Of a DNA stretch of 64,000 bases, positions 1,629 through 41,706 are shown in pieces. Origin of the DNA: Magnetospirillum moscoviense (GTDB lineage Bacteria > Pseudomonadota > Alphaproteobacteria > Rhodospirillales > Magnetospirillaceae); NCBI RefSeq assembly GCF_001650635.1, contig NZ_LWQU01000104.1, positions 124,001-188,000 of the forward strand, written 5' to 3'. Made by a program: the position numbers and the translations under genes. The notes below the pieces were generated by a model. That model saw nothing but the letters and a program-made list of their open reading frames with translations. It made no database searches and was not told the origin of the DNA. The stretch's first letter is position 1. Every line of letters begins with the position of its first letter.

Positions 1629-1711
1629 CACGATCTCACCGGCTGTAATTTAGAATAACTATTGTTTGCTGAAACGACGCGAAAGACAAGCTCGGGAAAG
1701 GCCTTGAACCA

Positions 1712-2557: not shown

Positions 2558-3490
2558 TTAAATCAATCGGTTGCGCAGACTGGCCCCGACAAGTGCCGAC
2601 GCGCGGCGCGCGTCAGGCTCACCCTCCAAGGACAGCTCGGTGAGGCGGATCAAGCCTTCGCCACAGGCGACGTCGATCCCGGCATTGCTGACGCGGCAGA
2701 CTTGGCCGGGGACGGCGAGAAAGGGGCTTGGCGCCTGAACCAGGGTGGTGCGCCAGACGGTCAGCCGCTCCCTCCCCTCCAAAGTGGTGAACGCACCATC
2801 AAAAGGTCGCGACGATGCCCGCACCAGCCGATGGACTTCCGTCGCCGGCCGGGTCCAGTCAATCTTTCCATCTTCTGGGCGTCGGGGATGGCAGCGCAGA
2901 GACACAGCCGGGTCGTCGGGCTGTCCAACCGGACTCAGGCGTCCTGAGGCGAGTCCGTCGATCGTGTCGGCGAACATGAACGGAATCCGGTCCTCGAGCC
3001 AGGCGTAGACGTCGCCGATGAAGGTGTCGTCAGTAAGCGGCAGGTGTTCGCGCAACAGCACCGGGCCGCTGTCAAGGTCTTCGGCCATTTGATGGATGCA
3101 AAGTCCCACATGAGGCTCGCCGTTCAGGATTGCCCAGTTGGGGCAGGCATTGCCGCGGTAGCGCGGCAGGTCGCCGGCATGGGCATTGAGGATGCCCAGG
3201 GGGAACTGGGCCAGAACCTCGGGCCGGAGAACCGTCAGCCAGTTGGCGGAAATGGCCACGTCGCAAGCCGCCAAGCGCAAGCGTTCAAGTCCCTGAGGAG
3301 TAGCGATGTCCAATCCCGAAAAGAAGGGTGCGCCCACCGTTTCGGCCAGCGCTTGGAAGTGCGCTTCGTCGCAGCGATAGAACGGCTCGGCCCGGCAGGT
3401 CCAAACCAAGCCAAGAGTGTGGCCGGCGCCGACGATGCGTCGTGCCGCTTCCAGCAGGGGACGGGTCCGCCCGATTACGGCAACGCGCAC
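2558..3490 (-). CDS. Formyl transferase, likely sugar N-formyltransferase
   Basis: Protein of 310 aa of the Fmt/ArnA formyltransferase fold, using N10-formyltetrahydrofolate. The catalytic Asn-His pair is in LNAHAGDLPRYRG, and the catalytic Asp is in the later EDLDSGPVL segment. The C-terminal part resembles the Fmt C-terminal OB domain. Housekeeping Fmt usually lies beside def, whereas this copy sits among glycan genes. An N-formylated amino sugar is therefore the likely product, as for WbkC in Brucella, whose O-antigen is N-formylperosamine. Gmd and a DegT aminotransferase in the same unit support that reading. Its start overlaps the end of the deacetylase-like gene by 16 nt. Confidence 0.8.
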   Translation of the reverse strand: MRVAVIGRTRPLLEAARRIVGAGHTLGLVWTCRAEPFYRCDEAHFQALAETVGAPFFSGLDIATPQGLERLRLAACDVAISANWLTVLRPEVLAQFPLGILNAHAGDLPRYRGNACPNWAILNGEPHVGLCIHQMAEDLDSGPVLLREHLPLTDDTFIGDVYAWLEDRIPFMFADTIDGLASGRLSPVGQPDDPAVSLRCHPRRPEDGKIDWTRPATEVHRLVRASSRPFDGAFTTLEGRERLTVWRTTLVQAPSPFLAVPGQVCRVSNAGIDVACGEGLIRLTELSLEGEPDARRASALVGASLRNRLI

Positions 3491-4232: not shown

Positions 4233-5399
4233 TCAGGGTTTCGGGGCGGAGAGGGAATCATCGACCCGGGGAAAGCAATACTTGATATAGAAGCTTTGCG
4301 GTATCCGGTCGAGACGCAAGAGCAACCAGAACAAGGGGCGAAGGCGCTCGAAGCTGCGCTTGTAGGTGGCGAAGTCGGTATATGGACGATAGGGGCGCGC
4401 CATCAGGGTCTGAAGAGTTTCGTCGTCGAAGCCCAGGCGCTTCTTGACCAGTTCGACGATTGACGTGTCGTGCTCGGCCGGCAGGGCCAGGAGACGCAGC
4501 CCTTCCTCTCGGCTCATTTGGCCTGAGCGCACCATGGCGGCGTAGCCGAGGATGCGGGTGTCTTCTCCCTTTGCCTGAGTGACATAGGAATGCTTGAAGG
4601 CCGCCATGCGATTTTCCAGATGGTGGCCGCCGTACCATTGCCAGCCCAGATTGCTGGACAGGAACGCCTTGGCCTCTTCCTTGTCATACTTCATGTAGTA
4701 AAGGGGCCGAAGCCGCTTGATATTTCGCAGGCCCGTCCAGCGGATGAATTGCCACAAACTCATATTTGGGAAAGTCTTCAGATGCTTGAGTTTGCCAAAG
4801 GTTTGATGGACGCTTTCGATATACTTACCGTCGAAATAGGACCAGCCTAGCGGTGCGAAGCCTTCGGTACGGAACGAATGGCCCTCAATGATGAACTTCA
4901 CGCCATGCTTTTCGGCTTGACGGTATAGCGTCGCCACAAAGGCGATGTCCGATGCGCAGTCGAGTTCACGTACGCCGGACAGCAGGAAGGCGCGGTAAAG
5001 GTCGTCGGCCTCGTGGTTGTCCATGACATGGGTGAACAGCGGCACCTTGAGCGCCGAGGTGACATTGAAGATGTTCTGGGTGGCTGTCGGTGAATTCCAA
5101 GTGTTATCATAATGTACCGCCAGGGGTCGAAGTCCATACTGGACAAGACGATAAAGCAAATAGCTGGAATCGCAGCCGCCACTCACCCCAACAATACAAT
5201 CATATTTTTTGCCCTGTCCGGCTTTTTTCATCTGGAGCACCATGCGCTCCAAGATTGCTTCGCCTCTGGAATCGTTTGGGTACTGTTCCTCCATCCGTTC
5301 CAAAATTCGGCAATAGTTGCAGACACCCTCGCCGTCAAATTCAATGGCCGGGAAGGTCTCGTCGTAAAGGCAGCGTCGGCAGTTCAGCAGATTGCTCAT
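4233..5399 (-). CDS. N-acetyl sugar amidotransferase (WbpG/PseA family)
   Basis: A 388-aa ATP pyrophosphatase-type amidotransferase. The PP-loop is at residues 73-78 (SGGCDS), preceded by two CxxC pairs (Cys7/Cys10 and Cys27/Cys30) typical of this family. In Pseudomonas aeruginosa, WbpG works with a HisH and HisF pair to convert an N-acetyl group of a UDP-sugar into an acetamidino group, using ammonia from glutamine. The same trio is present here: hisF2 overlaps this start by 4 nt (ATGA), and hisH follows upstream. This predicts an acetamidino (amidine) sugar in the glycan. Family identification is strong; the sugar is unknown. Confidence 0.88.
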   Translation of the reverse strand: MSNLLNCRRCLYDETFPAIEFDGEGVCNYCRILERMEEQYPNDSRGEAILERMVLQMKKAGQGKKYDCIVGVSGGCDSSYLLYRLVQYGLRPLAVHYDNTWNSPTATQNIFNVTSALKVPLFTHVMDNHEADDLYRAFLLSGVRELDCASDIAFVATLYRQAEKHGVKFIIEGHSFRTEGFAPLGWSYFDGKYIESVHQTFGKLKHLKTFPNMSLWQFIRWTGLRNIKRLRPLYYMKYDKEEAKAFLSSNLGWQWYGGHHLENRMAAFKHSYVTQAKGEDTRILGYAAMVRSGQMSREEGLRLLALPAEHDTSIVELVKKRLGFDDETLQTLMARPYRPYTDFATYKRSFERLRPLFWLLLRLDRIPQSFYIKYCFPRVDDSLSAPKP

Positions 5400-6178
5400 C
5401 GTGGATTTCCCGAAAACAAATCATCAAGCTCGGCACGACTTGGCAGGTTGATCAATACGCCGCGTTCGGGTCCTTGGAAGACGAACAAACTGCCTGCGGC
5501 GGCGGCGGCGGCGGCCGCTTCCAGAACTGGCCGCGCGAGGTCGGCCCGACAGCCCGCTCCGCCGCAAGCGATCACCGGCACCGAGACCGCAGCGGTCACC
5601 TGGCGGATCAGGTCGAGATCGTACCCGGACATGGTGCCATCGCGGTCGATTGAGGTCAGCAAGATTTCGCCGGCACCGGCTTCGGCCATGGCCGCCGCAT
5701 GCTTGACCGGGTCAATGCCAAGATCGGTGCGCCCGCCATTCGCCATAGCCCGGTAGCCGCGCATCCAGCGTCGCCGGACATCGATTGCGACGACAATCGC
5801 TTGGCTACCGAAGATGTCCGCGGCTTCGCGCACCAGACGGGGGTTGCGCGCCGCTTCGGTGTTGATGACCACCTTCTCGGCGCCGATGAACAGCAGCCGG
5901 CGGATGTCCTCGATGGAGCGGATGCCCCCGCCAACCGCCAGGGGGCCGGTGCATTCGTTGGCGATGCGTTCCACCAGGGCGAAATCAGGACCTCGGCGCT
6001 CAGGTGTGGCGGTGATATCAAGCAGGACGAGTTCATCGACTTCCAACAGATTGAAGATGCTGATGACGTTAACGGGGTCGCCCACATAGGTCGGCTTGCC
6101 GAAGCCTATCGTCTTCACCAGGCCGCCGTTTCGCAGCAGCAGGCAGGGTATTACCCGGGCACGGGTCATCGACGCCAT
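5396..6178 (-). CDS. hisF2: HisF2-type ammonia-channel partner of the sugar amidotransferase
   Basis: A (beta/alpha)8 HisF-like barrel of 260 aa. The first strand reads IPCLLLRNGG: Leu14 occupies the position of catalytic Asp11 of histidine-pathway HisF (IPCLDV). The second catalytic Asp is kept in VVAIDVRR. Loss of the first Asp argues against imidazole-glycerol-phosphate synthesis and for the WbpG-type role, passing ammonia from HisH. The C-terminal phosphate-binding region carries a run of eight alanines encoded by a GC-rich triplet repeat (about 5495-5518). The start overlaps the stop of hisH by 13 nt and the stop overlaps wbpG by 4 nt. Confidence 0.87.
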   Translation of the reverse strand: MASMTRARVIPCLLLRNGGLVKTIGFGKPTYVGDPVNVISIFNLLEVDELVLLDITATPERRGPDFALVERIANECTGPLAVGGGIRSIEDIRRLLFIGAEKVVINTEAARNPRLVREAADIFGSQAIVVAIDVRRRWMRGYRAMANGGRTDLGIDPVKHAAAMAEAGAGEILLTSIDRDGTMSGYDLDLIRQVTAAVSVPVIACGGAGCRADLARPVLEAAAAAAAAGSLFVFQGPERGVLINLPSRAELDDLFSGNPR

Positions 6179-6780
6179 TCCAGGAAATTGCGGAAGATCT
6201 GCGCCCCGTCCTGATGGCTCTTCTCGGGATGGAACTGAACGCCGGCCACCGAACCCTTCTCGACAGCCGAAGCGAAATTGTCGCCGTACCAGGTGCTTCC
6301 AGCGACATCGCCGTCAGGCACGCCGGTCGCTCGGAAAGAGTGGACGAAATAGTAGCGGGCGTCGGCACGCATGCCGGTGAACAGCCGGCTGGATGGCGAC
6401 GGTGTCACGGTGTTCCAGCCCATGTGAGGAACCGGCCGGCCAGCCTGGGGCTGAAATCGGTCCAGGCGGCCGCTGATCCAGGCCAACCCGGGCAGGTGGC
6501 CCTCGTCGCTTCGTTCCAGCAGCAATTGCATGCCCAGGCAGATGCCCAGCAATGGTACGCCGTCGCCCAGAGCACGTTGACGCAGGAGTTCGTCGAGGCC
6601 GCTGGCGCGCAAACGGTCCATGGCGGCGTCGAACGAACCCACGCCGGGAAGAAGCAGACGAGGCGCCTGAGCAATCACCTTTGGGTCGAAGGTGATGGTT
6701 GACTGGGCGTGGTGACGCCACAGGGCGGCCTGGACGGAACCGAGATTGCCAAGACCCAGGTTGACGATGGCGGCGTCCAT
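6166..6780 (-). CDS. hisH2: HisH2-type glutaminase subunit of the amidotransferase complex
   Basis: A 204-aa class I glutamine amidotransferase. The catalytic Cys81 is in GICLGM, and the His184-x-Glu186 pair is in QFHPEKS, so the triad is complete and it should hydrolyse glutamine to ammonia. HisH proteins pair with HisF; here the partner barrel has lost the histidine-pathway Asp, so the ammonia most likely goes on to the WbpG-type enzyme encoded next. The start codon overlaps the stop of the sulfotransferase gene (TGATG). Confidence 0.88.
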   Translation of the reverse strand: MDAAIVNLGLGNLGSVQAALWRHHAQSTITFDPKVIAQAPRLLLPGVGSFDAAMDRLRASGLDELLRQRALGDGVPLLGICLGMQLLLERSDEGHLPGLAWISGRLDRFQPQAGRPVPHMGWNTVTPSPSSRLFTGMRADARYYFVHSFRATGVPDGDVAGSTWYGDNFASAVEKGSVAGVQFHPEKSHQDGAQIFRNFLEWRR

Positions 6781-7835
6781 CAGTCCGGATCGATGCAGGC
6801 GGTTTCGGGACAGCTTTGGTAGGCGGCAAAGAGCCGACTAAGGTCGATCCAGCGTGGATCGGACCGATCGGGGCGTCGTGGCTCGAAGCTCGGGGGGATT
6901 GGACGGTCCGGCTGGGCTTCCAGTTCGATACCCAGCGCGGCGGCGGCGGCGGCGATCGTGTTCAAGGTGGCTGGCAAGTCGCGGCAGGCGTTCTCGTAGT
7001 TCAGGTGCACGACCCGCTCGGGCGCAACCTTGGCCAAGCCGGCATCAATGCGGCGGCGCAGGTGGTGGATTTGCCCTGCCACCTGGACCTCGGGACGGCG
7101 GCCCTCCAGCGCGGTTCGCTCGGGCGGGCTCGATCCCCACCAGACCTGCTCCGACCCGTAACGCTCCCGCCGGATCTTCAGCATGGACAGTGCGAGGTCG
7201 CAGGGGTCGCGCCGCATGTCGATGAACAGCGCTCGCGAAAACAGTGTCGCGAAGAAGTCGGCGTTGATGGTGAAAATGATCCCGCGAAACAGCAGCGGGG
7301 CCCGCCCGCCTACCGTCCACATGGCGGCCAGTTCGTCGAGCAGGCGGCCGGTGTCGGCCCGGCGCATGGCCTCGTCCGTAAGAAAGGCGTTCTCACCGAA
7401 AGGGAAAAATCTTTCCCAGAAATAGGCGAAATCGTGGGGACCGAAGATATCCTTGGAGATACCGGCCACGCTTTCGTAGCCAACGGAGCCGGCGCCCACC
7501 TGGTCGCGCATTGACCTCGAGGCGGCGATGCCGAAATGGGGAGCCCCCCACATCCGCGCGGCGATGTTGTCGGGATAGGTCAGCCGAAAGGCGTTGGCCA
7601 GCAGTTGAAGCATCATCGTCGTGCCCGACCGGGGCGTCCCACAAACCAGCAGCATGGGGACGCCGTCCGGCCGCGGCCGGCACAGTTCCTCGGGGACCGG
7701 ACGCTCAGCCAGGGCGGCGTTGGTGGCCAGCAACTGCGACAGGACGAAAGGATCTGGCCGCCATCGATCCGATCGGCGGGCATGTTCGTCCCAGTTTGGC
7801 GCGACCGGCGCGGCCAGGTCGTTAGCTGTTGTCAT
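6780..7835 (-). CDS. PAPS-dependent sulfotransferase-like protein
   Basis: Predicted 351-aa sulfotransferase-fold protein. The 5'-phosphosulfate-binding loop is at residues 66-73 (GTPRSGTT), and a FIDMRRDPCDLALS segment resembles the 3'-phosphate-binding region. It would transfer sulfate from PAPS to an acceptor hydroxyl or amine; this family can also act on protein-bound or lipid-bound substrates. I chose ATG 7835, which overlaps the stop of the upstream gene in an ATGA; the longer open frame upstream is antisense-like and was discarded. No signal peptide is present, so it should act in the cytoplasm before export. No PAPS synthesis genes are in the window. Confidence 0.78.
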   Translation of the reverse strand: MTTANDLAAPVAPNWDEHARRSDRWRPDPFVLSQLLATNAALAERPVPEELCRPRPDGVPMLLVCGTPRSGTTMMLQLLANAFRLTYPDNIAARMWGAPHFGIAASRSMRDQVGAGSVGYESVAGISKDIFGPHDFAYFWERFFPFGENAFLTDEAMRRADTGRLLDELAAMWTVGGRAPLLFRGIIFTINADFFATLFSRALFIDMRRDPCDLALSMLKIRRERYGSEQVWWGSSPPERTALEGRRPEVQVAGQIHHLRRRIDAGLAKVAPERVVHLNYENACRDLPATLNTIAAAAAALGIELEAQPDRPIPPSFEPRRPDRSDPRWIDLSRLFAAYQSCPETACIDPD

Positions 7836-8527
7836 CGGGTGAACTCTTCCCAATTGGCGATGATGCCGTCGGGCACCTCCTGTCGCGACAAGATACGCGG
7901 TGGATCGCCGAACTGGAAGGTTCCGGATGCCACGTTGCGCAGGACCAGGGATCGCATTCCCACCATGGCACCGGGGCCGATGGTCACGGCCTCGGCGATG
8001 GCGCTGGCGCTGCCGATGAAGCTGTACGAACCGATCCGCACGCCCGAATTGGTGGTGACCTGCGAGGTGATCAAGGCGCCGTCGCCGACCCGCGAATCCG
8101 CGCCGATCACGCTGTTCCACAAAACGATCACCCAGCGGCCCAGTCGAACGCCATTGGCGATGACGGCGCCGAAATGAATGATGGACCCGGCGCCGATGCT
8201 GGCGCTGGCGTAGACCTTTGCACCGGGATGGATCAAGGTGGCATAGCGGTCGTCGGGCAGATCGAGGCGGCACAGGATGGAGTGACGTGCGAGCCGGGTC
8301 GAATGCGAGCCGATAGCAAAGACGAAGCGGGCGTCGGGGTGTTCCGCGACCCGCTCCAATGGCCCCAACACCGGCAGGCCGGCGATGGTGGTGCCGGCGA
8401 GGTCGGGATTGTCGTCGAGAATCCCGCGCGGCGCCCAGGATCCCCCCGCCTGATTGATATCGACCAGCACGTCGATCAGTTCCGGGACTGCGGTGGCGCC
8501 CAGGAAAATCAGGGGGCCGCCGGTCAC
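7832..8527 (-). CDS. NeuD/PglD-type left-handed beta-helix acyltransferase
   Basis: A 231-aa protein with an N-terminal PglD/NeuD-type nucleotide-binding half (IFLGA, ILDDNPDLAG, FVFAIGS) and a C-terminal hexapeptide-repeat half (repeats such as IGAGSI, IGADSRVGDG and IGPGAMVGM). Such enzymes acetylate a sugar hydroxyl or amine using acetyl-CoA. The catalytic His of PglD-type enzymes is not obvious: the segment around FGAVIANG lacks the usual His. I chose GTG 8527, with GGAG about 8 nt upstream and a GTGA overlap with the carrier-protein stop. It may instead use an acyl group delivered by the neighbouring ligase and carrier protein. Confidence 0.75.
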   Translation of the reverse strand: MTGGPLIFLGATAVPELIDVLVDINQAGGSWAPRGILDDNPDLAGTTIAGLPVLGPLERVAEHPDARFVFAIGSHSTRLARHSILCRLDLPDDRYATLIHPGAKVYASASIGAGSIIHFGAVIANGVRLGRWVIVLWNSVIGADSRVGDGALITSQVTTNSGVRIGSYSFIGSASAIAEAVTIGPGAMVGMRSLVLRNVASGTFQFGDPPRILSRQEVPDGIIANWEEFTR

Positions 8528-8829
8528 GATGGTGGCTCCGTGGTGATGCGGGTCGCGATCCATGCGGTCAGCGAACCGAGGGTGGCCAGGGGATTTTCGG
8601 TTCCGAACGCATCCGGGTCGGTCGCGATGACGACAATTCGGCCTGTCCGGCGTTGCACCGCCGATTCCACCGCGCCGATCAGCATGACCAGGCCCAGCGA
8701 GTCGATCGTTCGCCCACTTCCGGTCAGAACGGTCTCGGGAGCGTCGACTAAGCGCATGCCAGGTGGAAGGGTGGCGTTTATCTCGGCGACCGCTTCGGTG
8801 ATGGCGCCTTGTGCGAGCGTGGACGGCAT
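8524..8829 (-). CDS. Acyl carrier protein (DltC-like)
   Basis: A 101-aa carrier protein. The phosphopantetheine site is Ser44 in the DSLGLV motif, with the expected hydrophobic helix after it. The start ATG is joined to the stop of the AMP ligase gene in TGATG, so the two are translationally coupled. This implies the ligase loads this carrier. DltC proteins are about 78 aa; this one has an extra loop (GRIVVIATDPDAFGTE) and a short tail. It could hold an amino acid or another acyl group for transfer by the NeuD-type enzyme next door or by the MBOAT protein further along the unit. Confidence 0.82.
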   Translation of the reverse strand: MPSTLAQGAITEAVAEINATLPPGMRLVDAPETVLTGSGRTIDSLGLVMLIGAVESAVQRRTGRIVVIATDPDAFGTENPLATLGSLTAWIATRITTEPPS

Positions 8830-10316
8830 CAAGGGTTCTCCTGGCCCTGTCGGTAGATGCGCTGGACGGCGGGGCGATCGATCTTGCCGCTCTTGTTGAG
8901 CGGCAGGTCGGTGACCTTGATCAGGGCGCTCGGCACCATGTAAGGCGGCAGGCGGGTGGCCAGTTGGGCTCGCGCATGGTCGAGATCCAGATCGGCCTCG
9001 CACTGGATCGCCGCCATCAGGAAGTCGCGACCACCGATGGATTCGACGAAGCATACCGCTTCGGTCAATCCAGGCAGGGTGCGCAGATTGGCCTCGATGT
9101 CCATCAATTCGATCCGGTAGCCGTTCAGCTTGATCTGCCAGTCCAGGCGGCCCTTACAGAAGGTCAGGCCATCGCGCTCGACCACGCGGTCGCCGGTTCG
9201 GTACCAGCGCACGTCATCATGCTCGATGAATCGCTCGGAGCCGATGCCGCCAAGATATCCCGGAGTAACCTGGACGCCACCGATCAGAAGCTCGCCGGCC
9301 TCGACCCGCGCCAGGGTGGCCGGAAGCGGCGTGCCGATAGGCGCGAAGCCGATATCCGAAAAGCGTTCGATATCTTCCACCGAACACGGATGCCAGAAAT
9401 TCTCGACGCCGGTTTCGGTCAGACCGTACCAGTTGGACACATGAGCGACGGCCATGTCGTCCAGGCAGAAACGCAGCAGGTCCAGGCGGAATGGTTCGCC
9501 GCACATGAACAGGACGCGGACAGACGAGGGAATGGGCCGGCCGTGGCCAACGGCGCGCAGCCGGGCCAGGATTGACGGGACCGAGGCAAGAACGGTGACG
9601 CCGTGGGTTCGCAAGTGGGCCAGCGGCAGCAATCGCTCGGCCTCGGTCAGGGCCGGCGCGAACGTTCCCTGCGCCAGCGGGCAGCAGAACAAATAGAAAA
9701 TCGAGATGTCGAACCCGAAATCATGATAGTCGGAAAACACATCGCCTTGTCGTAGCGGCAGAACCTGCATGGCATGGCGCACGAAGGGCTGGAAATTGGC
9801 ATGTGTCATCGGTACGCCTTTGGGCAGCCCGGTCGAGCCCGAGGTGAACATGACATAGGCCTCGGCGTCGTCATCGAAGCCATCGACCTCGAAATCAGTC
9901 TCGGCCTGGGCGTCGTAGGCCTCGGGCAAGGACAGAACGCGCACATCGCCGGCCTGCGCCCAACGTGTCAGCTGGTCCGGTAGCGGCCGGTCGGTCAGGA
10001 TCACCCCCGGCGTGGCCAGTTCCAACATCTGCAGCGTCCGCTCGGCGGGAAACTCCGGGTTCAGGGGCACCCAGCTGTTCTTCGACAGAAGAATTGCGTA
10101 GATCGCCGCGTAGGCGGGCAAGGACTTGCCGGAAAAGACAGCCACCCGGATCCCTTGGGTCCCGGACAGGCAGGTGTTGATACGGCGCATGACGGCGCCC
10201 AACTCGGCATAGGAACGGTTGACATCGCCGTGAATCCAGCATGGCCCTTCAGCCGCCTGAAGGGCGGTGAGCAGGTCGCGATAGAACACCGTCGATTCCG
10301 ATGGCATTGGAACCAT
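8829..10316 (-). CDS. AMP-dependent (amino) acid ligase, DltA/NRPS adenylation-like
   Basis: A 495-aa adenylation enzyme. Core motifs are clear: A3 around residues 156-166 (MFTSGSTGLPKG), A5 YGLTETG, A7 YRTGDR, A8 GRLDWQIKLNGYRIE, and the catalytic A10 lysine in NKSGKIDRP. Asp203, in GFDISIF, aligns with the Asp of the FD-x-S core motif that binds the substrate alpha-amino group in NRPS domains and DltA. An amino acid is therefore the likely substrate. The enzyme would adenylate it and load it on the coupled carrier protein. ATG 10316 lies 5 nt after the upstream stop; ATG 10307 is an alternative. The open frame continues upstream only as a shadow of the previous gene. Confidence 0.85.
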   Translation of the reverse strand: MVPMPSESTVFYRDLLTALQAAEGPCWIHGDVNRSYAELGAVMRRINTCLSGTQGIRVAVFSGKSLPAYAAIYAILLSKNSWVPLNPEFPAERTLQMLELATPGVILTDRPLPDQLTRWAQAGDVRVLSLPEAYDAQAETDFEVDGFDDDAEAYVMFTSGSTGLPKGVPMTHANFQPFVRHAMQVLPLRQGDVFSDYHDFGFDISIFYLFCCPLAQGTFAPALTEAERLLPLAHLRTHGVTVLASVPSILARLRAVGHGRPIPSSVRVLFMCGEPFRLDLLRFCLDDMAVAHVSNWYGLTETGVENFWHPCSVEDIERFSDIGFAPIGTPLPATLARVEAGELLIGGVQVTPGYLGGIGSERFIEHDDVRWYRTGDRVVERDGLTFCKGRLDWQIKLNGYRIELMDIEANLRTLPGLTEAVCFVESIGGRDFLMAAIQCEADLDLDHARAQLATRLPPYMVPSALIKVTDLPLNKSGKIDRPAVQRIYRQGQENP

Positions 10317-10321
10317 TCCGG

Positions 10322-11059
10322 TTAAGCCAGGGAATAGGCGCGATAAGGCGCGTCCACCCCATCGGCATGGTGGATGGTGCGTGTCCGAAGATCGATAATC
10401 GCCGACGATATCGTCGAGAACGCGCCAGTGCGCCAGATGCGTTCGCGCCGTGCGTCCTGGGGCCGCAGCGCCGCCTGGACCATGTCCAGGTCGTTGATGA
10501 GCGGCAACTGTTCGCGGGCGTAGTCGAGACGGTCGAAGCTGCTGGGATAGTCGGCGTGACATTTGGCGCCGTGGTCGAGCGCGACGAAATGATTGGTGAC
10601 TGCGTCGCGCACCGCCAGCGACCGGCGATGGGTCGCAGTCTTGTGCGTCTCGATCACAAAGGCCTGATCTTTGTCCATCAAGATAAGGTTGTAGCCCATC
10701 CAGGTCGGCTCGGCGGCGTGTGCCAGGACAGAAGCCGCCGCCTCGGCCGAGGCCAGGTCGGCGAAGCTCCCGGACAGGAAGCCGGTCGGGCTGATCAGGC
10801 CCCGGCGTTCCTCCGCCATCACTGCCCTGGACAGGTCGGACTTTCCGTCTTCGACAGCGCGCGTCCACTCGGGCGAATTGACGGCGGTGCTGACGAAGGC
10901 GACGCCGTGGCGGTTGACCGCCGCGCTGAAGTAGGTCAGGCCCCTGGAGCGGATGGCGACCAAGTCGGCGGTCCGCACGATGTCTTCGACCTCGGGGATT
11001 TCCTTGTCGCGGTTCTTTGTAAGGAGGCCAAGGTCACGCAGCACCAGCACAGTACACAT
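10322..11059 (-). CDS. Ntn-hydrolase-type amidohydrolase or acyltransferase (Met-Cys N-terminus)
   Basis: Predicted 245-aa protein starting Met-Cys-Thr-Val. Removal of Met would expose Cys as an N-terminal nucleophile, as in the Ntn hydrolases of the C45/acyl-CoA:6-APA acyltransferase and NRDE groups. A KNRDK element near residue 15 matches the NRD signature of those groups. The later GYNLILMDKDQAFVIE and DHGAKC segments fit the alpha-beta-beta-alpha fold. The start overlaps the stop of the 400-aa orphan (TGATG), and the AMP ligase follows 5 nt after its stop, so the three are probably co-translated. It may cleave or form an amide in the aminoacyl branch. The family call is by motif only. Confidence 0.6.
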   Translation of the reverse strand: MCTVLVLRDLGLLTKNRDKEIPEVEDIVRTADLVAIRSRGLTYFSAAVNRHGVAFVSTAVNSPEWTRAVEDGKSDLSRAVMAEERRGLISPTGFLSGSFADLASAEAAASVLAHAAEPTWMGYNLILMDKDQAFVIETHKTATHRRSLAVRDAVTNHFVALDHGAKCHADYPSSFDRLDYAREQLPLINDLDMVQAALRPQDARRERIWRTGAFSTISSAIIDLRTRTIHHADGVDAPYRAYSLA

Positions 11060-12261
11060 CAGCGACACCTCAGTTCGACTTCGCCTGGAAACGGTGCGGG
11101 TTGGGTGGCGTTCAAATATTCGCGGATTCGGTTGGCGAGATAGCAAAATTCCATGTAGGGCGAAACGTTGCCGCGATAGCGCAAGATCGACAGCCGGTTC
11201 AAGTCGAGCAGGATTTCGGCGTCGCGTTCCACCAGCACGCCGAAGAACACGAAGGGCACGAACCGTCGCGCGGTTTCTGAATACAGCGAGCTTTTCATCA
11301 TCTTTTGCGCCACCAGGCTGGTGCGATAGGCGTAGAGCCAGCGGAAGGCGTTGCAGGTGCCGCTGGTGCCCAGCACGGTCAGGCCCGGCAGCACCGGTGA
11401 CAGGGGGCGGCCATAATAGCCGGTCACCTGATGGTAGGTGTAGGGCGTGTCGGTGTCGTAGATGGTAACCATCAGCGACCGCGGACGGATGGTGCCGCCG
11501 CTGGCTTCGGCGATGCGACGGGTCAGCCGGCGCGACAGCACGGCGGCAATCTCGTTGCAGCGGATGGGGGCCAGCATTAGCCGCCGATGATAGCGTTCGA
11601 TGCGGGGCTTGCTGATGTCGGCCAGGACCAGACTGGTTTCCAGTTCCGTCTGGGTCAGGTCGTCCAAGCCGGTGAAGCATTGGATGCGCTCGCGCGAGCG
11701 CAGAAAGTACTCCCGCCGAATTTCGGCCGGGTACGAGGTGATTTCGTGCGGATCGACCATGACGTCGCCGACCCGGAACACCGCATGGTCCTCGTCCATG
11801 GTCAGGTCGAAGGCCTGGGACAGCATCTTCGATCCCAGGACCACCCCGTAGAACACCCCTTCCGAGCGCCAGGCGCTGGTATCCTCCAGGATCGCCGCCT
11901 TCACCTGCGGCTCGACCTGATGATGGCGGGCGATGTATTCGCGTACGATGGCTTCTTCCAGGTCCTCGATGCCGTTCAGCACCAAGGGGTCGGTCAGTTC
12001 GGCTCCGACGGTCAGCGAGCTGACGGACGTTCCCTGGAACAGCGAGTCGCCGTCCGGCTCGCCGTACCAAGCCTTCAACTCTTCGGTTCTGATCAGATCA
12101 GCGAGGATGGCGCGGGCCTGGGTCCATTGCTCGGCGTTTAGAGAATCAAGCCAAGCGCGCCCCGATTCGACGCCGGCCTGCAGGTCGGCATACCAATCGG
12201 CTTGATTTGTTTCTGTGCTGATGTCTTGCAGTTCACGAAGATAGTCGGCCAGCGAGATCAT
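11059..12261 (-). CDS. Conserved hypothetical protein of unknown family
   Basis: A 400-aa soluble protein that I do not recognise. It has no signal peptide or membrane segment. The sequence is mixed alpha/beta, with two cysteines in the C-terminal half (near TSGTCNAFRW and PYMEFCYL) and a Tyr-rich stretch (TYHQVTGYYG). It sits 1 nt after the radical SAM gene and is joined by TGATG to the Met-Cys Ntn-hydrolase gene, with the AMP ligase and carrier protein next. This places it in the aminoacylation branch of the locus. A substrate-supplying or acyl-transfer role is possible but unproven. Confidence 0.7.
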   Translation of the reverse strand: MISLADYLRELQDISTETNQADWYADLQAGVESGRAWLDSLNAEQWTQARAILADLIRTEELKAWYGEPDGDSLFQGTSVSSLTVGAELTDPLVLNGIEDLEEAIVREYIARHHQVEPQVKAAILEDTSAWRSEGVFYGVVLGSKMLSQAFDLTMDEDHAVFRVGDVMVDPHEITSYPAEIRREYFLRSRERIQCFTGLDDLTQTELETSLVLADISKPRIERYHRRLMLAPIRCNEIAAVLSRRLTRRIAEASGGTIRPRSLMVTIYDTDTPYTYHQVTGYYGRPLSPVLPGLTVLGTSGTCNAFRWLYAYRTSLVAQKMMKSSLYSETARRFVPFVFFGVLVERDAEILLDLNRLSILRYRGNVSPYMEFCYLANRIREYLNATQPAPFPGEVELRCR

Positions 12262-14118: not shown

Positions 14119-14892
14119 TTAAATGGCCTCGAAGACATAAACGAAGACACCGCCGACATCGTCGGACTCTAGCGGCCCGATCTTGATCTTGCTGTCCAGG
14201 CGGAACCCATCGGCCAGCATTTCCGCCTCGAACAGGGCCTCATGACGCTTGAAGTCACCGATGCGGTACAAACCGGAGCGCAGGGCGCTGATCTCGATTT
14301 GGGCGACCTCGAAATGTTCGTTGCGCAGGGCGTGGTCGACGATGAAGCCGTGATAAGTGTAAAGCGCCCGCCGCCATTGGTCCTCGGTCTCGTAATGGGG
14401 CAGGAATTCGCCGCCCATCACATAATGCCCGCCGGCCTTCAGGTTCTTGCGGATGTTTCTGACCAGGGCGCCGGCCAAGGAGCTCGGGATGTGGTCGTGG
14501 GCGAACACCGACAAAGCGAGATCGTAGGCTCCGACTTCGCCGTGGGTCAGGGCATCGTCGCAAAAGACGCGGACATGGTGGCCGCCCTTCGCCTGCATGT
14601 GGTCTTCAAGAATGCGGCAGCATTCCTGGTCCAAATCGACGGCATCCACCGAAAGGTTCGGATAGCGCAGCAACTCCTCGGTTGCCAGGCCGGTGCCGGC
14701 ACCAAACTCCCACGCACGAGCCTGTCGCCGCTCGAGGCCAAGACGGACGAGAACGTCGTGAATCGCGTCGGTCATCTCCACATAGAACGGATGAGTCCGC
14801 TCTACCGCATGGTAGATGTCCAGATCGATATAGCGCGACATCTCGATCTTGGTGGCGTTACCCTTAAAAAGGTCTTGGCTCATGGTCATCAT
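14119..14892 (-). CDS. SAM-dependent methyltransferase
   Basis: About 257 aa with a class I methyltransferase fold: motif I is AWEFGAGTGLAT, motif II is VDAVDLDQE, and ALSVFAHDHI with LKAGGHYVMGGE are the later strands. The start codon overlaps the asparagine synthetase-like stop; ATG 14892, 14889 and 14883 are all possible, and the first two are coupled by overlap. No strong ribosome binding site is seen, so translation probably depends on coupling. The acceptor is unknown; small-molecule or sugar O-methylation is likely from the neighbours. Confidence 0.78.
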   Translation of the reverse strand: MMTMSQDLFKGNATKIEMSRYIDLDIYHAVERTHPFYVEMTDAIHDVLVRLGLERRQARAWEFGAGTGLATEELLRYPNLSVDAVDLDQECCRILEDHMQAKGGHHVRVFCDDALTHGEVGAYDLALSVFAHDHIPSSLAGALVRNIRKNLKAGGHYVMGGEFLPHYETEDQWRRALYTYHGFIVDHALRNEHFEVAQIEISALRSGLYRIGDFKRHEALFEAEMLADGFRLDSKIKIGPLESDDVGGVFVYVFEAI

Positions 14893-16814
14893 CGGTTCGG
14901 GGTGGTGGGGCGATGGTATGCACCGGCCGAATGGCCGCCGCCAAGAAAAATCTGACACCAGAATTCCAAGCTAAGCAGCGACCAGATCAGCAGCCGACGG
15001 TTGATGCGCCCATGGAGGTGATCCAAGATCAGCTCCTGGACGCTGCCACGGTCCAGGTAGTCGTAGATCATGGCGTTGCCTTGGATCAAGGTTTCTTTGA
15101 CGAAATCGATGCTCTCGCCCTTGAACCAGCTGGCGTCTGGCCCCGAGAAGCCCTGTTTGTTCGCGGAAGTGACCGATTCCGGCACATAACGCGACATGGC
15201 CTTGCGCAACAGCAGTTTGCCATCCTGGGTGCGGCTGAAATACCGTTCCGACTTGTTGCCGCTCTCGTTCTCGTTGAAGCCGACGACTTGGCCCAATTGG
15301 CCAAGCTTCATCCCGACGGGCAGGCGGGTGGCGAAGTCCACCAAGTCATTGTCGAGGAACGGGACGCGAATCTCGACGCCGTGTGCCATGCTGAGCTTGT
15401 CCTCGACGGTCAGCAGGCCGTGAAGGAAAGTCTTCGCCTCGAAATACAAGGAATAGTTCACATAATCTTCAGGTCGGCTGAGTCTGCTGGTCTCGGGTCC
15501 GAATACATTGCGGAACAGGCTTCTGGTGAAGTCACGATTGACGGATGGCCAAGACGGCGCCATGACGGCGCCCAGCAAGCCGTCAGGGATGAGCCTCTGC
15601 CAGTAGCGATAATAGTTCTCGACGTAATCCTCGAAGTCGCTGTTGACGACGGCTCTGTAATAGCGCCAGGGGTATCCGCCGAACAGCTCGTCTCCGCCGG
15701 TTCCAGCCAGAACAACCTTGTTGAAGGCAGAGGCCAGCCGCGCGGCGTAGAAATTGGGGTAGCTCTGGCCGACGCGAGGCTCCTCAAGATGCCAGATCAA
15801 CCGGGGCAGCACCCGTTCCATGTCGCCGGCCTTGAGTACCATCTCGTAATGCTCGGTCTTGAACAGGTACGACATGTACTCGGCGGCCTGTCGTTCATCG
15901 AAGCTAAGCTCGATGCCCGAGGCCGAACGCAGGTCGAAGCCAATGGTGAACGTGCGCATTCCCTGAGCGTGGCGTGTCGCCAAGGCGGTGATCGAGCCGG
16001 TATCCATGCCGCCGCTCAGGAAGCTCCCCACTTCGACGTCGGATACCATCTGCCGTTGGACCGCTTGGCGGAAGAGCATGTCGAATTGGTCGATATAGTC
16101 GGCTTCCGACAAGCGGGTGAGCGGCTCCTGAAATTGGAAGTCCCAATACCGTCGCGGCACGACCTCCCCCGACCGTTCAGCGGCGACGATCGCCACGGTC
16201 CCGGCGGGCAACATATGGACCCCCTTGAACAGGATGCGGTCCGAGAAGAAATTCTGGAATGTCAGATACTCGGCCAGCGCCTCGACATCCATTTCGGCGC
16301 GAAAGGCGGGATGTGGAAGGAATGCCTTCACTTCGGACGCAAACAACAGGGCATTGCCCCTTTTGGTCCAATAGAGAGGCTTTATGCCGTAACGGTCGCG
16401 GGCCAGCGTCAGTGTGCCCGTATCCGCATCCCAAAAGGCCAGCGCGAACATGCCGTTGAAGCGTTCGATTGCTGCGGCCTTCCACTGGCGCAAGGCGGCC
16501 AGAACGACCTCGGTGTCGCCCGTGCTGACGAAGTGGTGTCCCAGTCCTTCCAGTTCGGCGCGTAGAGCGGTGAAATTATAGATCTCGCCATTGTAGACCA
16601 GGCATGATCGCCCGTCCGCACTGGTCATCGGTTGATTCGATCGCTCTGAAAGGTCGATGATCGCCAGACGGCGGTGCCCCAGGCCCAAGGCGCCATCGAC
16701 ATATTGGGCCCCGCCGTCCGGACCTCGATGGGCGATGGTCGCGGTCATCGCGGCAAGCACAGTCCTGTCGGCCGGGGCGCCGTCCAGATTTAAGATGCCG
16801 ACGATGCCGCACAT
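14889..16814 (-). CDS. asnB: Asparagine synthetase (glutamine-hydrolysing) family protein
   Basis: A 641-aa AsnB-type protein. Cys2 (MCGIVG) is the glutaminase nucleophile and the N-terminal half is a class II glutaminase. The C-terminal half has an ATP-pyrophosphatase loop (FLSGGMDTGS) followed by a synthetase domain with a VPFLDNDLVDFA segment typical of the family. In surface-polysaccharide loci such enzymes often amidate uronic acids or other carboxylates rather than make free asparagine. The start is 2 nt after the aminotransferase stop. Whether the product is free asparagine or an amidated sugar or aminoacyl group is not decidable from sequence. Confidence 0.87.
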   Translation of the reverse strand: MCGIVGILNLDGAPADRTVLAAMTATIAHRGPDGGAQYVDGALGLGHRRLAIIDLSERSNQPMTSADGRSCLVYNGEIYNFTALRAELEGLGHHFVSTGDTEVVLAALRQWKAAAIERFNGMFALAFWDADTGTLTLARDRYGIKPLYWTKRGNALLFASEVKAFLPHPAFRAEMDVEALAEYLTFQNFFSDRILFKGVHMLPAGTVAIVAAERSGEVVPRRYWDFQFQEPLTRLSEADYIDQFDMLFRQAVQRQMVSDVEVGSFLSGGMDTGSITALATRHAQGMRTFTIGFDLRSASGIELSFDERQAAEYMSYLFKTEHYEMVLKAGDMERVLPRLIWHLEEPRVGQSYPNFYAARLASAFNKVVLAGTGGDELFGGYPWRYYRAVVNSDFEDYVENYYRYWQRLIPDGLLGAVMAPSWPSVNRDFTRSLFRNVFGPETSRLSRPEDYVNYSLYFEAKTFLHGLLTVEDKLSMAHGVEIRVPFLDNDLVDFATRLPVGMKLGQLGQVVGFNENESGNKSERYFSRTQDGKLLLRKAMSRYVPESVTSANKQGFSGPDASWFKGESIDFVKETLIQGNAMIYDYLDRGSVQELILDHLHGRINRRLLIWSLLSLEFWCQIFLGGGHSAGAYHRPTTPNR

Positions 16815-16816
16815 GG

Positions 16817-17968
16817 CTAGAGCGCCGCCAAGGCTTCGGTGACGCGCATGAAATCCTGGGCGGTCATGCGATTGTGCAATGGGATCGCCAGAGACCGGGT
16901 CGCACAGGCGCTGGCACCGGGGAACTGATTGTCGGTGTAGCCGAACCTTTGCCGGTAATATCCGAGCCTATGGATCGCATGGGTACCTGGTCTGGTCATA
17001 ATCCCCTGTTCTGCCAGTCGATCCATGATCACGGCCGCAGGTGCCGGAGATCTGGATTCATCCACCAAGGTGACATATGCCTGCCACCCGTGCCGGCAAT
17101 CGCCCGGAACCCCAGGCAGGGTGAGCCAGTTCATGGCGGACAGATGCTCACCATACCACGCGGCCCACTGGCTGCGCGCCGCAAGCATGGTATCGAGCCG
17201 CGCCAATTGGGCCAGTCCCACCGCCCCTTGCAAGTCCGTCATGCGATAGTTGTAGCCGAGAACCGGGAATTCAGGAAGCAGATGAGGGCGTGGTCCGTGG
17301 TGGCGTTCCTCCTCGGACTGGGTGGAGCCGTGGTTGCGCAACTGGCGGATGACGGCGGCAAGGTCATCGTCGTCGGTGGTGATCATTCCCCCTTCTCCGG
17401 TGGTGATGGTCTTGCGCGGATGGAAGGAAAAGACCCCGACCCGCCCCAGCGATCCAGCCGCACGTCCCCCGCGGGCGGCGCCGGCCGCGCAGGCCGCATC
17501 CTCGACGATCTCCACCCGGTCGGGCAAGCAGGCCCGCAGGGCGGCCACGTCCGCGCACAGCCCGAAAAGGTGGACGGCGACCACCGCACGCGTCCGGCCG
17601 GTGACCTTTCGGAGGGCGTCGTCGATGTCGATGTTGAAGGTTGCAGGATCGACGTCGCAAAGAATGGGGATGGCCCCACAATACAAGACGGCGTTGGCCG
17701 AAGCGATCCAGGTGAAGGACGGGACGATGACTTCATCCCCGGGGCCGATGCCCAGACTTAGCAAGGCAAGGTGAAGTCCGGTGGTGCACGATGTCACGGC
17801 GATGGCGTGGGAAACACCGTGGCGGCGTGCGAATCGGCGTTCGAACTCGGCAACCTTCGGACCCTGGGTCAGCCAGCCGCTGTCCAAGACGTCGCGCAGC
17901 AGTTCCAGCTCTTCCGACCCGACAACCGGGGTGGCAATTGCGATCGTGGATGTGTCCGTTTGGGTCAT
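16817..17968 (-). CDS. DegT/DnrJ/EryC1/StrS-family PLP aminotransferase
   Basis: A 383-aa sugar aminotransferase. The PLP lysine is Lys186 (HPRKTITTGEGG), the cofactor Asp is Asp157 in VEDAAC, and the N-terminal GWLTQGPKV segment is typical of GDP-perosamine synthase and related enzymes. It would aminate a 4-keto-6-deoxy nucleotide sugar. With gmd supplying GDP-4-keto-6-deoxymannose in the same unit, GDP-perosamine is the leading hypothesis, and the downstream formyltransferase would then make N-formylperosamine. The start overlaps the stop of the SGNH-like gene in ATGA. Confidence 0.87.
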   Translation of the reverse strand: MTQTDTSTIAIATPVVGSEELELLRDVLDSGWLTQGPKVAEFERRFARRHGVSHAIAVTSCTTGLHLALLSLGIGPGDEVIVPSFTWIASANAVLYCGAIPILCDVDPATFNIDIDDALRKVTGRTRAVVAVHLFGLCADVAALRACLPDRVEIVEDAACAAGAARGGRAAGSLGRVGVFSFHPRKTITTGEGGMITTDDDDLAAVIRQLRNHGSTQSEEERHHGPRPHLLPEFPVLGYNYRMTDLQGAVGLAQLARLDTMLAARSQWAAWYGEHLSAMNWLTLPGVPGDCRHGWQAYVTLVDESRSPAPAAVIMDRLAEQGIMTRPGTHAIHRLGYYRQRFGYTDNQFPGASACATRSLAIPLHNRMTAQDFMRVTEALAAL

Positions 17969-19572
17969 GGCACCTTATTCTCGAGGCGGTTGGCCAAGTC
18001 ACGTTCCAGGCGGTTCAATGACTCTTCGACCTCCGTGATGGCCGCGTTCGAGTGGATGTTGGGGGACGGCCCCAGGTGCCGGGGCTTTGTCAATCGCGTG
18101 ATCCGCCACAATAGCAGGGCCAGGACGATCAAGGCGGTAGCGCCGACGGCAACGGCGAGGCGCAGGGTGGTCAGTTCGCGGTTCTTGGCGGTCTGGACCC
18201 GCTGGTAGACGCGCTGGTCGTAATCGGGCATGCGCGCCAGAAAGTCGGCGTTGGCGGCGGCGCGCTCCGACATCAGGATGGCCGAACGGTCGAGAGGATG
18301 GTCCGCCGGTGATCCGGGGGGGGAGGGGCGCGACTCGGTCGGTCCCACCTTTGGGGCGGAGGGAGATGGCGGCGGCGGTTTGGGCAGGCGATCGCCAAGG
18401 CCGGCGGCCGTTACGAACTGCCTTCCGGTAAACTGGGTGACAAGGCGCTTGATTTCATCCATTCGCAAAATCGGTCGCAACGTGGGGTCGCTCTCACCGA
18501 TCTTCTGAAGGATGCGCAGATAGGTGACGTCGGCACCATGGATGTCGTCGAGGAATTCGCACTCGCTGGATCCCAGGGGGCGAGGGTCGTGAAAATCCCA
18601 CAGCGACGGCACCTCCTTCTTCATCGTCGCACGCCACTCGGCGATATAGGCGAAGCCGGGGTCCTGTTCATAGGCGCGGGCCATGGCGGGCGAAATGGGC
18701 GGAATGATGGGAACCACGCGGGTTCCATCCTTCTCGAGGCGCGCGATCATGTCCTTGAGCGCCTCGATATTGCGAGGGTCGATGGATTGGCCCGACCGAT
18801 AGGCGCCGTGGGGCAGGTTTTTCTTACGGGCCAGGTCGGCGGCGAAATCACAGGCCCGTCCCGGCAGGTCGGTCTTGGCCAGCCATAGGTAATAATAGGA
18901 GCCGTCCGAGCCAAAACCCGTGTCGGCCATCGCCGCGCCATAGCCGATGCGGATCAATCCGTCGGCATTGGCGTTCACGCGCCCAAGAAGAACGTCCAGG
19001 TAGCGTGATGGTGTCAGAGACCCGGACTTCATCAGGGTCGTCGGCAGCGTCAGTCTGCGGATGGTGTTGGCGGTCGGATCGATTCCCCAGCGCGGGCGAT
19101 CCTTGGCCGGCTTCTGCGTGGCGATCGGCCCCGCCGACTCGGCCGGGCCGGGGGGGGCGCGCATGAACCACCAGTAATCCAGGAACAACAGCAGATAGCG
19201 TGGACGGGCGACGTCGGCCAGGGCCCGCCTCCGCTCCTCGAACATGCCGCGGTCGATATAGCCCGAGTGGCCGAGAGCCCCTCCCAGGCTGAAGAACGAG
19301 CGCGAGAACGCATAATCACGCAGATGGAACGAGCGGGATGAGCCGATGACGAAAATCTCTGGATCGAGGGCTCGGATGATTTCGGGTCGTGGGTCATTGA
19401 TGGTCATGGCGTTGAATACGGTGTTGCCCTTCGCCCAAAGGGCACGGACCGTCTCTTCGCTCATCAATTCGTTGATGCGGGCCATGAACAGCAGGTTCGC
19501 TGCGCCAACCGTTGCCAGCAGCACAAGCGGTGCTCCGATGGCGATCCAGAGATAACGGCGCATACTCGTCAC
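17965..19572 (-). CDS. Membrane-anchored SGNH-like (DltD/AlgJ-like) protein with C-terminal PDY tail
   Basis: A 535-aa protein. A TM anchor (about residues 7-25) precedes a periplasmic domain with FVIGSSRS (Ser at 78-79) and a late DDIH at 342-345. These look like the Ser and the Asp-x-x-His of SGNH enzymes such as DltD. A Pro-rich linker (about 395-430) leads to the shared tail: PDY at 449, Arg454, Arg471, TM 472-491, then a positively charged region and a heptad-like cytoplasmic helix. It lies next to an MBOAT gene, as DltD lies near DltB and AlgJ near AlgI. GTG 19572 has GGAC about 7 nt upstream; ATG 19563 is the alternative. It probably helps move an acyl group onto an exported glycan. 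Confidence 0.72.
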   Translation of the reverse strand: MTSMRRYLWIAIGAPLVLLATVGAANLLFMARINELMSEETVRALWAKGNTVFNAMTINDPRPEIIRALDPEIFVIGSSRSFHLRDYAFSRSFFSLGGALGHSGYIDRGMFEERRRALADVARPRYLLLFLDYWWFMRAPPGPAESAGPIATQKPAKDRPRWGIDPTANTIRRLTLPTTLMKSGSLTPSRYLDVLLGRVNANADGLIRIGYGAAMADTGFGSDGSYYYLWLAKTDLPGRACDFAADLARKKNLPHGAYRSGQSIDPRNIEALKDMIARLEKDGTRVVPIIPPISPAMARAYEQDPGFAYIAEWRATMKKEVPSLWDFHDPRPLGSSECEFLDDIHGADVTYLRILQKIGESDPTLRPILRMDEIKRLVTQFTGRQFVTAAGLGDRLPKPPPPSPSAPKVGPTESRPSPPGSPADHPLDRSAILMSERAAANADFLARMPDYDQRVYQRVQTAKNRELTTLRLAVAVGATALIVLALLLWRITRLTKPRHLGPSPNIHSNAAITEVEESLNRLERDLANRLENKVP

Positions 19573-19581
19573 GGTGTGGTC

Positions 19582-21123
19582 CTAGAACTGCCAATAGATG
19601 AATTCGGAAGTATTCCCGAAATTGTAGAGTCCGTAGAGCAGGAACACCATCGTGACCACCGCCCAGGCCAGGGTCGGCCGCCACGCCAACGTCAAGCCGG
19701 TCCAGCGAAGGATGCTGCGGTCGTCCAGGTCTCCGTAAACGAGGCTGCAGGCGGGGCGATAGCGGCGCAGCCAGGCCTGAGTATTCGGTAGCCCCAGGCA
19801 GATGGCAACGCCCATGGCCAGCCAGGCGAAAGTGAGTCCGGTCGGAAAGCCCCGGGCGACCATGTTGCCCTCAGTCCACCGAAATCCCAGCGCCTCGGCC
19901 GCCGCGGACAGCGGACCCAATGCCTCGCGGTACGATGCGGGCAGAACCAGGCGGTCCCCCATGCCAATCATGCCTTGCCAGATGTTCAACACAGCATGCA
20001 GGCTGTCAGCGCGAAACAAGGTCCATGCGACCATCACGCCGATCATCGATAGCGCCCATCCCGCCCAGGCCGGAATGCGAAGGCGGGTGTCTCCCAGGTC
20101 GCGCCAGGCGTGGTTGAGCATCAGCATGACGCCGTGCAGTCCTCCCCACAAAACGAAAGTCCAACTGGCGCCGTGCCATAATCCGCCCAACAGCATCACG
20201 GCAGAGACGTTGACATAACGGCGCAAGCGACCATGCCGGTTGCCGCCAAGCGCGACGTAAAGGTAGTCACGAAGAAACCGCGACAGCGAAATATGCCAGC
20301 GCCTCCAGAAATCGATGATGCTTGTCGCCTTGTAGGGTGAGTTGAAGTTGACCGGGAGCCGCACGCCGAACATGCGCGCCAAGCCAAGAGCCATATCCGA
20401 GTATCCGGAAAAGTCGAAATAGATCTGCAAGGTGTAGGCGATAACCCCCGTCCATGCCTCGACGAGAGAGAGCGGGGTGGATGTGTCGGCGATCTGAAAG
20501 ACCGGCGACGCGATCGAGGCGAATGTATCGGCCAGCACCTGCTTCTTGAACAGGCCGGCGGCGAACATGGTCATGCCCACGGCCACGTTGGTTGTACCGA
20601 TGCGAAACGCCCTGCTGTCCTTGAATTGGCCGATCACCTCGGTGAAGCGGACGATCGGACCGGCGATCAGCTGAGGGAAGAAGGCGACATAGAGAAGGTA
20701 TTCGGCGAAACCGCGTGGCGAGACGTTCTTTCGGTAGACATCGACCAGGAAGCTGATTTGATGGAAGGTGTAGAACGAAATCCCCAACGGAATGACCAAC
20801 GCCTCGGCTGAAGGAAGGCCGATGGTGGTCGCGAAGAACACCCGATACTTGAAATGGGCCAGGGCCAGAAGGTTGATGGCGATGCCGAAGCCAAGAAGGG
20901 CGCGGCTCCGTGTGGTGAACACGGCGTTGCCGACCATGTAGTTGAACAGGACGGAGGCGCCGAGAAGGAGAATATTGTCTGGTTCCCAGAGGTAATAGAA
21001 CGCGAAGGAAGACGAAACCAGCACCATGAGCGCCGGGACACGACCGAAGCGCCGCACGAGCGCCACCGCCAGCACGGTGGCAGGCAGGAAGCCCAGAAGG
21101 AATTCATAGGAGTTGAAAAGCAT
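19582..21123 (-). CDS. MBOAT family O-acyltransferase (AlgI/DltB/PatA-like)
   Basis: A 513-aa polytopic inner-membrane protein of the MBOAT family. His317, in LWHGASW, is the conserved catalytic His, and His277, in RRWHISL, is the second conserved His region. It has the PLGISFYTFHQISF signature and about ten membrane helices. MBOAT proteins of this branch pass an acyl group across the membrane: acetyl in AlgI and PatA, D-alanyl from DltC in DltB. The SGNH-like PDY-tail gene follows 9 nt downstream and a small PDY-tail gene precedes it by 11 nt, so the three form a compact membrane subset. Confidence 0.88.
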   Translation of the reverse strand: MLFNSYEFLLGFLPATVLAVALVRRFGRVPALMVLVSSSFAFYYLWEPDNILLLGASVLFNYMVGNAVFTTRSRALLGFGIAINLLALAHFKYRVFFATTIGLPSAEALVIPLGISFYTFHQISFLVDVYRKNVSPRGFAEYLLYVAFFPQLIAGPIVRFTEVIGQFKDSRAFRIGTTNVAVGMTMFAAGLFKKQVLADTFASIASPVFQIADTSTPLSLVEAWTGVIAYTLQIYFDFSGYSDMALGLARMFGVRLPVNFNSPYKATSIIDFWRRWHISLSRFLRDYLYVALGGNRHGRLRRYVNVSAVMLLGGLWHGASWTFVLWGGLHGVMLMLNHAWRDLGDTRLRIPAWAGWALSMIGVMVAWTLFRADSLHAVLNIWQGMIGMGDRLVLPASYREALGPLSAAAEALGFRWTEGNMVARGFPTGLTFAWLAMGVAICLGLPNTQAWLRRYRPACSLVYGDLDDRSILRWTGLTLAWRPTLAWAVVTMVFLLYGLYNFGNTSEFIYWQF

Positions 21124-30859: not shown

Positions 30860-30917
30860 CCCTTTCGGGTGTAGGGGCATTCATGACGTCGCACCCCGAG
30901 ACAAGGATGTGGAATCG

Positions 30918-41703: not shown

Positions 41704-41706
41704 GGG

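Follow-up and report, generated by a model that had tools for sequence, protein, structure and literature searches.

With GTP and a pair of metal ions, CofE, the F420 gamma-glutamyl ligase, makes an acyl phosphate from a carboxylate and joins it to the amine of glutamate (PMC10861534). In the literature surveyed, no role of its fold other than the synthesis of the F420 tail has been described. A short peptide (a dipeptide) amide-linked to an amino sugar has been found in the sulfonated peptidylamido-glycan of C. difficile type B flagellin, and the authors of that work were aware, in 2016, of no Gram-negative glycan bearing a peptidyl substituent (PMC5207245). This is a Gram-positive precedent for a peptide amide on a sugar, and no homology to the genes described here is claimed. 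We analysed a 64,000-nt stretch of Magnetospirillum moscoviense DNA (contig NZ_LWQU01000104.1, positions 124,001 to 188,000; hereafter the window). Our boldest reading, to which we give a probability of roughly 0.4, is that the CofE fold acts here as a GTP-dependent ligase outside F420 synthesis, within an undescribed six-gene cassette. In several Gram-negative phyla, this cassette would attach an amino-acid or peptidyl group, C-methylated and amide-linked, to sugars of the cell surface, which are probably nonulosonic acids.

A first-pass annotation of the window had singled out positions 10322 to 12261, where an orphan protein of 400 aa was described as coupled to a Met-Cys Ntn-hydrolase-like protein and an AMP ligase by a 1-nt overlap or a 5-nt gap. 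Translation of the open reading frames and reading of the junctions agree with this description: the orphan stop codon and the Ntn start codon overlap by 1 nt (TGATG), and a 5-nt spacer separates the Ntn stop codon from the ligase start (TAA CCGGA ATG, with an alternative ATG at 10307). That interval covers the orphan and Ntn genes, and the ligase gene lies just outside it. The run extends further on both sides (Table 1). The radical-SAM gene lies upstream of the orphan across a 1-nt gap and is preceded, across a 2-nt gap, by the methyltransferase gene, whose start codon is uncertain, the open frame extending to 14958; the carrier-protein gene lies downstream of the AMP ligase. Since NeuD-like, sulfotransferase, HisH, HisF and WbuX genes continue the run after the carrier gene, the locus is a glycan island.

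Table 1. Genes of the cassette and its immediate neighbours in the window.
Feature	Position	Strand	Evidence
Orphan, 400 aa, divergent CofE-fold protein (GTP-dependent amide ligase-like)	11059..12261	-	AF2, Foldseek, VIA, hhalign
Predicted Cys-type Ntn hydrolase/acyltransferase (C45/AAT-like), 245 aa, nucleophile Cys2	10322..11059	-	AF2, VIA
Predicted stand-alone amino-acid adenylation enzyme, 495 aa from ATG 10316	8829..10316	-	TIGR01733
Acyl/peptidyl carrier protein, motif TIDSLGL	8557..8829	-	DS motif
B12-binding-type radical SAM protein, 617 aa	12263..14116	-	PF04055, CxxxCxxC
SAM-dependent methyltransferase	14119..14913	-	Methyltransf_25, E 3e-10
NeuD/PglD-type hexapeptide acetyltransferase, neighbour, not core	7832..8563	-	TIGR03570, E 1.5e-42
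WbuX-HisF-HisH sugar amidotransferase set, neighbour, not core	4233..6780	-	TIGR03573, E 2.6e-62

Relatives of the orphan were gathered by scanning the whole collection once and searching several clades. They were found in a Magnetovibrio MAG (L003), in a Rhodospirillales MAG (L010 and L018, two contigs that both break inside the orphan gene), in Omnitrophota (L005, L007), in Desulfobacterota (L006, L009) and in Nitrospirota (L008, L020, L021). The neighbourhood survey, which the first-pass annotation had proposed as a check for conserved pairing, showed that all nine complete loci, the window included, hold the same six genes, coding for the adenylation ligase, the carrier protein, the B12 radical-SAM enzyme, the CofE-like protein, the Cys-Ntn hydrolase/acyltransferase and the methyltransferase, mostly overlapping or lying less than 35 nt apart. 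The proposed extent of three genes therefore did not hold, and a unit of two or three genes was rejected, since the six recur in every complete locus. At most about 2% of the genomes sampled, across four phyla, have a homologue of the orphan: 2 of 99 near relatives (the window's own genome counted), 2 of 334 Omnitrophota, 1 of 345 Desulfobacterota and 3 of 245 Nitrospirota genomes, and among the last the orphan and the Ntn protein co-occur in the identical three. The gene set is not a chance assembly, because full-length orphan relatives are 47-58% identical across genomes and phyla, and Met1-Cys2 and the KNRDK motif of the Ntn protein are invariant. Moreover, the cross-locus pairwise identities of the orphan, Ntn, radical-SAM and methyltransferase proteins correlate (r 0.62-0.73; 0.40 for the orphan against the adenylation enzyme), as expected for genes mostly inherited together. 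The orphan and its partners are thus genuine, conserved genes, and in our reading the cassette is horizontally spread.

The first-pass annotation had placed the orphan in no known family. At the level of sequence this stands, as no match was found in Pfam, NCBIfam, PHROGs, PDB sequences, plasmids or viral contigs; at the level of fold it fails. The AlphaFold2 model, computed with 11 relatives in the input, reached a pLDDT of 81.5 and a pTM of 0.87. The only good Foldseek matches of this model were five CofE chains (best E 5.9e-3, probability 1.0), and VIA aligned it to three CofE entries with Z scores of 11.1, 10.5 and 10.5, the next unrelated fold reaching 3.9; weak matches at Z 3-4 (Argonaute, endonuclease V) were treated as noise. 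A single fold was thus matched, that of CofE, instead of a housekeeping fold without link to acyl chemistry. The best alignment covers 188 of 233 residues with an rmsd of 4.2 and 16% identity; the CofE-like region spans residues 80-373 of the model (about 190 aligned), and the N terminus carries an additional helical region of about 80 aa relative to CofE.

Profile comparison led to the same family. When the orphan alignment was compared by hhalign with a CofE alignment of 31 sequences (30 PF01996 proteins and 2g9i), the score was 34.4, which none of 200 column shuffles reached (best 24.1); the reversed alignment scored 16.6, and two unrelated cassette alignments scored no more than 20.2. The 31-sequence alignment was needed for this result: a single-sequence hhalign comparison with one CofE was not significant, and the global mode gave no usable alignment. 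In one-model searches run with no filters, the CofE profile reached E 4.6e-7 with the orphan of L009 and E 0.03 with that of the window, so that significance depends on the member, and PF01996 matched none of the 11 members of the orphan family.

The order of motifs is common to the two families. V-V-x-x-x-K-x-x-S near orphan residue 140 corresponds to TQKIVSK of CofE; D215-x-S217 corresponds to D109-x-S111, both invariant, with the hhalign register two residues off; D269-T270 corresponds to D150-T151, both aspartates being invariant; G298 and G301 correspond to G166 and G169; and P232 and P336 correspond to P122 and P214, each invariant in its own set. D109 and D150 of 2g9i are presumably acidic residues of the metal/GTP site. 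Compared with CofE and the N-domain of FbiB (PF01996; 2g9i, 2phn, 7uld), the orphan is alike in fold and motif order, and perhaps in the places of the key aspartates, whereas it differs in its low identity, its score below the PF01996 cut-off, its N-terminal helical addition, a genome with no F420 pathway and its setting in a glycan cassette. Because of the fold, the profile match, the motif order and the chemistry of CofE, we read the orphan as a divergent CofE-fold ligase: it very probably shares the fold and homology of CofE, and it is probably an active ligase. That it is instead a CofE-fold protein without ligase activity, serving as a scaffold or as a partner of the carrier protein, seems to us quite unlikely; its distance in sequence from CofE, the extra N-terminal helices and the C-terminal half, the weakest part of the profile match, would fit such a role, but its polar motifs (RTEELKAWY, DPHEI, DISKP, RCNE and DTDTPY) are very strongly conserved over four phyla, as in an enzyme.

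A role as a true F420 gamma-glutamyl ligase, for which the fold alone would speak, was rejected and is hardly credible: PF01996 misses the orphan, searches with PF01996 and CofD gave no match in the window's genome, and the genes around it are those of glycan synthesis. As a separate observation, five other loci (L047, L049, L050, L051 and L052), from small alphaproteobacterial genomes of 1.1-2.2 Mb, encode low-scoring PF01996 proteins (98-131 bits, well below ordinary CofE), which possibly have another CofE role.

The Met-Cys start and the NRD element noted earlier in the Ntn-like protein are both present, with M-C at the N terminus and NRD at residues 16-18, and N156 is invariant as well among the ten relatives. 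Its AF2 model (pLDDT 92.3) was aligned by VIA to isopenicillin N acyltransferase (2x1c) at Z 20.8-20.9, to NAAA at 20.6 and to CV2077 at 20.1, which are ties under VIA's own rule, and Cys2 aligns with the catalytic Cys103 of isopenicillin N acyltransferase. Judged from this model, the protein has a Cys-Ntn fold with an N-terminal nucleophile cysteine. It resembles isopenicillin N acyltransferase/C45, NAAA and bile salt hydrolases in fold (Z about 18-21) and in N-R-D, and bile salt hydrolases in the cysteine directly after Met1; unlike the C45 family, it is short, lacks a propeptide, falls below the C45 model cut-off and is fused to the methyltransferase in three loci (L006, L008 and L020), where one ORF of about 500 aa encodes both. 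The window copy stays below the curated cut-offs (PF03417, 21.4 of 23.2 bits; NF040521, E 2e-9, 37 of 85 bits), and the L020 copy passes that of PF03417.

The AMP ligase matched TIGR01733 at E 8e-73, under the model cut-off, and its PDB homologues are NRPS A-domains and DltA. The aspartate that anchors the alpha-amino group (D200 of P0003) is invariant in nine adenylation enzymes, and by its sequence the protein is classed as an amino-acid adenylation enzyme. Comparison by motif with the GrsA positions gives the pocket code D-I/L-F-S/A-F-C-F/W-V-E, which suggests a small pocket and names no amino acid. The DS[LMVI] motif was found in all eight aligned copies of the carrier protein and also in L021; the L020 copy matches PF00550 (E 1e-9), and the window copy has no Pfam match. 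Adenylation enzyme and carrier resemble the DltA/DltC pair in the A-domain fold family, the conserved alpha-amino aspartate and the adjacent carrier, but the pocket code, the lack of D-alanylation partners and a score below the DltA cut-off set the enzyme apart from DltA. The CofE fold, the AAT-like Ntn protein and the adenylation enzyme with its carrier together support the amide and acyl chemistry that the first-pass annotation had expected of a small module.

The radical-SAM protein matched PF04055 (E 3.5e-16) with the motif RGCYANCAFC, and CxxxCxxC is present in all nine orthologues, which are 47-68% identical and adjoin the orphan in all loci. Its B12-binding Pfam match is below cut-off, and its nearest models are a RiPP C-methyltransferase (TIGR03975, the best NCBIfam match, 116 bits) and a P-methyltransferase, both under their cut-offs. 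Methyltransferase orthologues occur in all cassettes. Two more B12-binding-type radical-SAM genes lie in the same island (window 54-1631 and 30909-32405), one of them adjoined by a methyltransferase gene (1712-2533), and radical-SAM enzymes may therefore act at several modification steps in this island.

Nonulosonate genes were found within about 10 kb of the cassette in six of ten loci: PseB, a cytidylyltransferase and NeuB in L003, a PseB relative in L018, NeuB and a PseF-like enzyme in L005, NeuC in L007, a PseF-like enzyme in L009 and PseI in L020. In L003 and L018 the sugar genes are interleaved between the orphan and Ntn genes, those of L003 including a PIG-L deacetylase and a formyltransferase. 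Furthermore, orthologues of the NeuD/PglD-type acetyltransferase adjoin the cassette in L003 and L006, and the WbuX-HisF-HisH set is also near it in L003 and L008. No nonulosonate genes were seen at L006, L008 and L021, and none of the genes within 10 kb of the window cassette is a nonulosonate synthase; the contig does carry two NeuB homologues at a distance of about 80-95 kb upstream of the window (C104:28699-29493 and 41692-42327), which might supply its island with nonulosonic acid. The neighbouring sugar genes point to an N-acyl group that is replaced or added on an amino sugar. It is unlikely that the product is instead a free small molecule, such as a secreted amino-acid natural product, with the glycan neighbourhood incidental: an A-domain, a carrier, a B12 radical-SAM enzyme and a methyltransferase are typical natural-product parts and the distribution is patchy, but glycan genes surround most loci with long flanks, besides being interleaved in the two named above. 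Searches of the open literature for a CofE-like ligase, or for a radical-SAM enzyme, in pathways to nonulosonates or O antigen yielded nothing relevant.

Several other genes recur near the cassette. Formyltransferase-like genes occur at no fewer than four loci (window 2558-3490, L003 12414-13103, L008 7072-7842 and L009 1991-2767) and perhaps N-formylate the sugar that the cassette would decorate. DUF4910/M28-like and AAC(3)-type acetyltransferase genes accompany it in L005 (5838-7937) and L020 (5974-7359, 14652-15440). At 17965-21123 of the window, a 535-aa protein without Pfam match is encoded beside an MBOAT O-acyltransferase, and the two resemble a polysaccharide O-acetylation pair.

From the gene content, co-occurrence, predicted folds and conserved motifs described above, we infer GTP use, a substrate, an order of steps and a sugar acceptor. 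The adenylation enzyme would activate a small alpha-amino acid and load it onto the carrier protein, and the B12 radical-SAM enzyme would C-methylate it. With GTP, the orphan would convert a carboxylate into an acyl phosphate and then into an amide, adding a second residue or an amine cap. The Cys-Ntn protein would then take the acyl group off the carrier and pass it to the sugar amine, or remove the cap, and the methyltransferase would methylate the exposed amine. Isopenicillin N acyltransferase acts on acyl-CoA, likewise a pantetheine thioester. We put at about even odds that the cassette builds an amino-acid-derived amide and places it on an amino sugar, in many cases probably a nonulosonic acid, of a glycan at the cell surface, and the balance is the same for amide decoration of a sugar as such. 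The ligase reaction of the orphan is the least certain step, because a carrier thioester and a GTP ligase are redundant for a single amide.

The main rival to this course takes its logic from butirosin. The butirosin side chain (BtrI/J/H/G) is made from a carrier-bound amino acid and transferred to an amino sugar; its carrier-bound acyl group is capped with an amide-linked gamma-Glu by BtrJ and uncapped by BtrG. By analogy, the CofE-like ligase would cap the carrier-bound amine with a glutamyl-type group, the Ntn hydrolase would uncap it after transfer, and methylation would follow. An amide-adding ligase and a partner of amidohydrolase fold occur together in every case, and the Ntn-methyltransferase fusion fits amine release followed by methylation; on the other side, the loci were not found to share a separate acyltransferase, and the closest Ntn fold is that of an acyltransferase. 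The butirosin ligase is an ATP-grasp enzyme and its hydrolase and transferase have other folds, so that the likeness is one of logic only. We hold this protection and deprotection to be possible, at well below even odds, and retain the decoration of a surface sugar as the preferred reading.

If that reading is true, the known chemistry of this ligase fold would be extended by a CofE relative that works, in glycan islands, alongside a carrier protein and a B12 radical-SAM enzyme; an unseen kind of sugar decoration would be predicted in several Gram-negative phyla, and the cassette would be a defined, portable gene set open to expression and assay.
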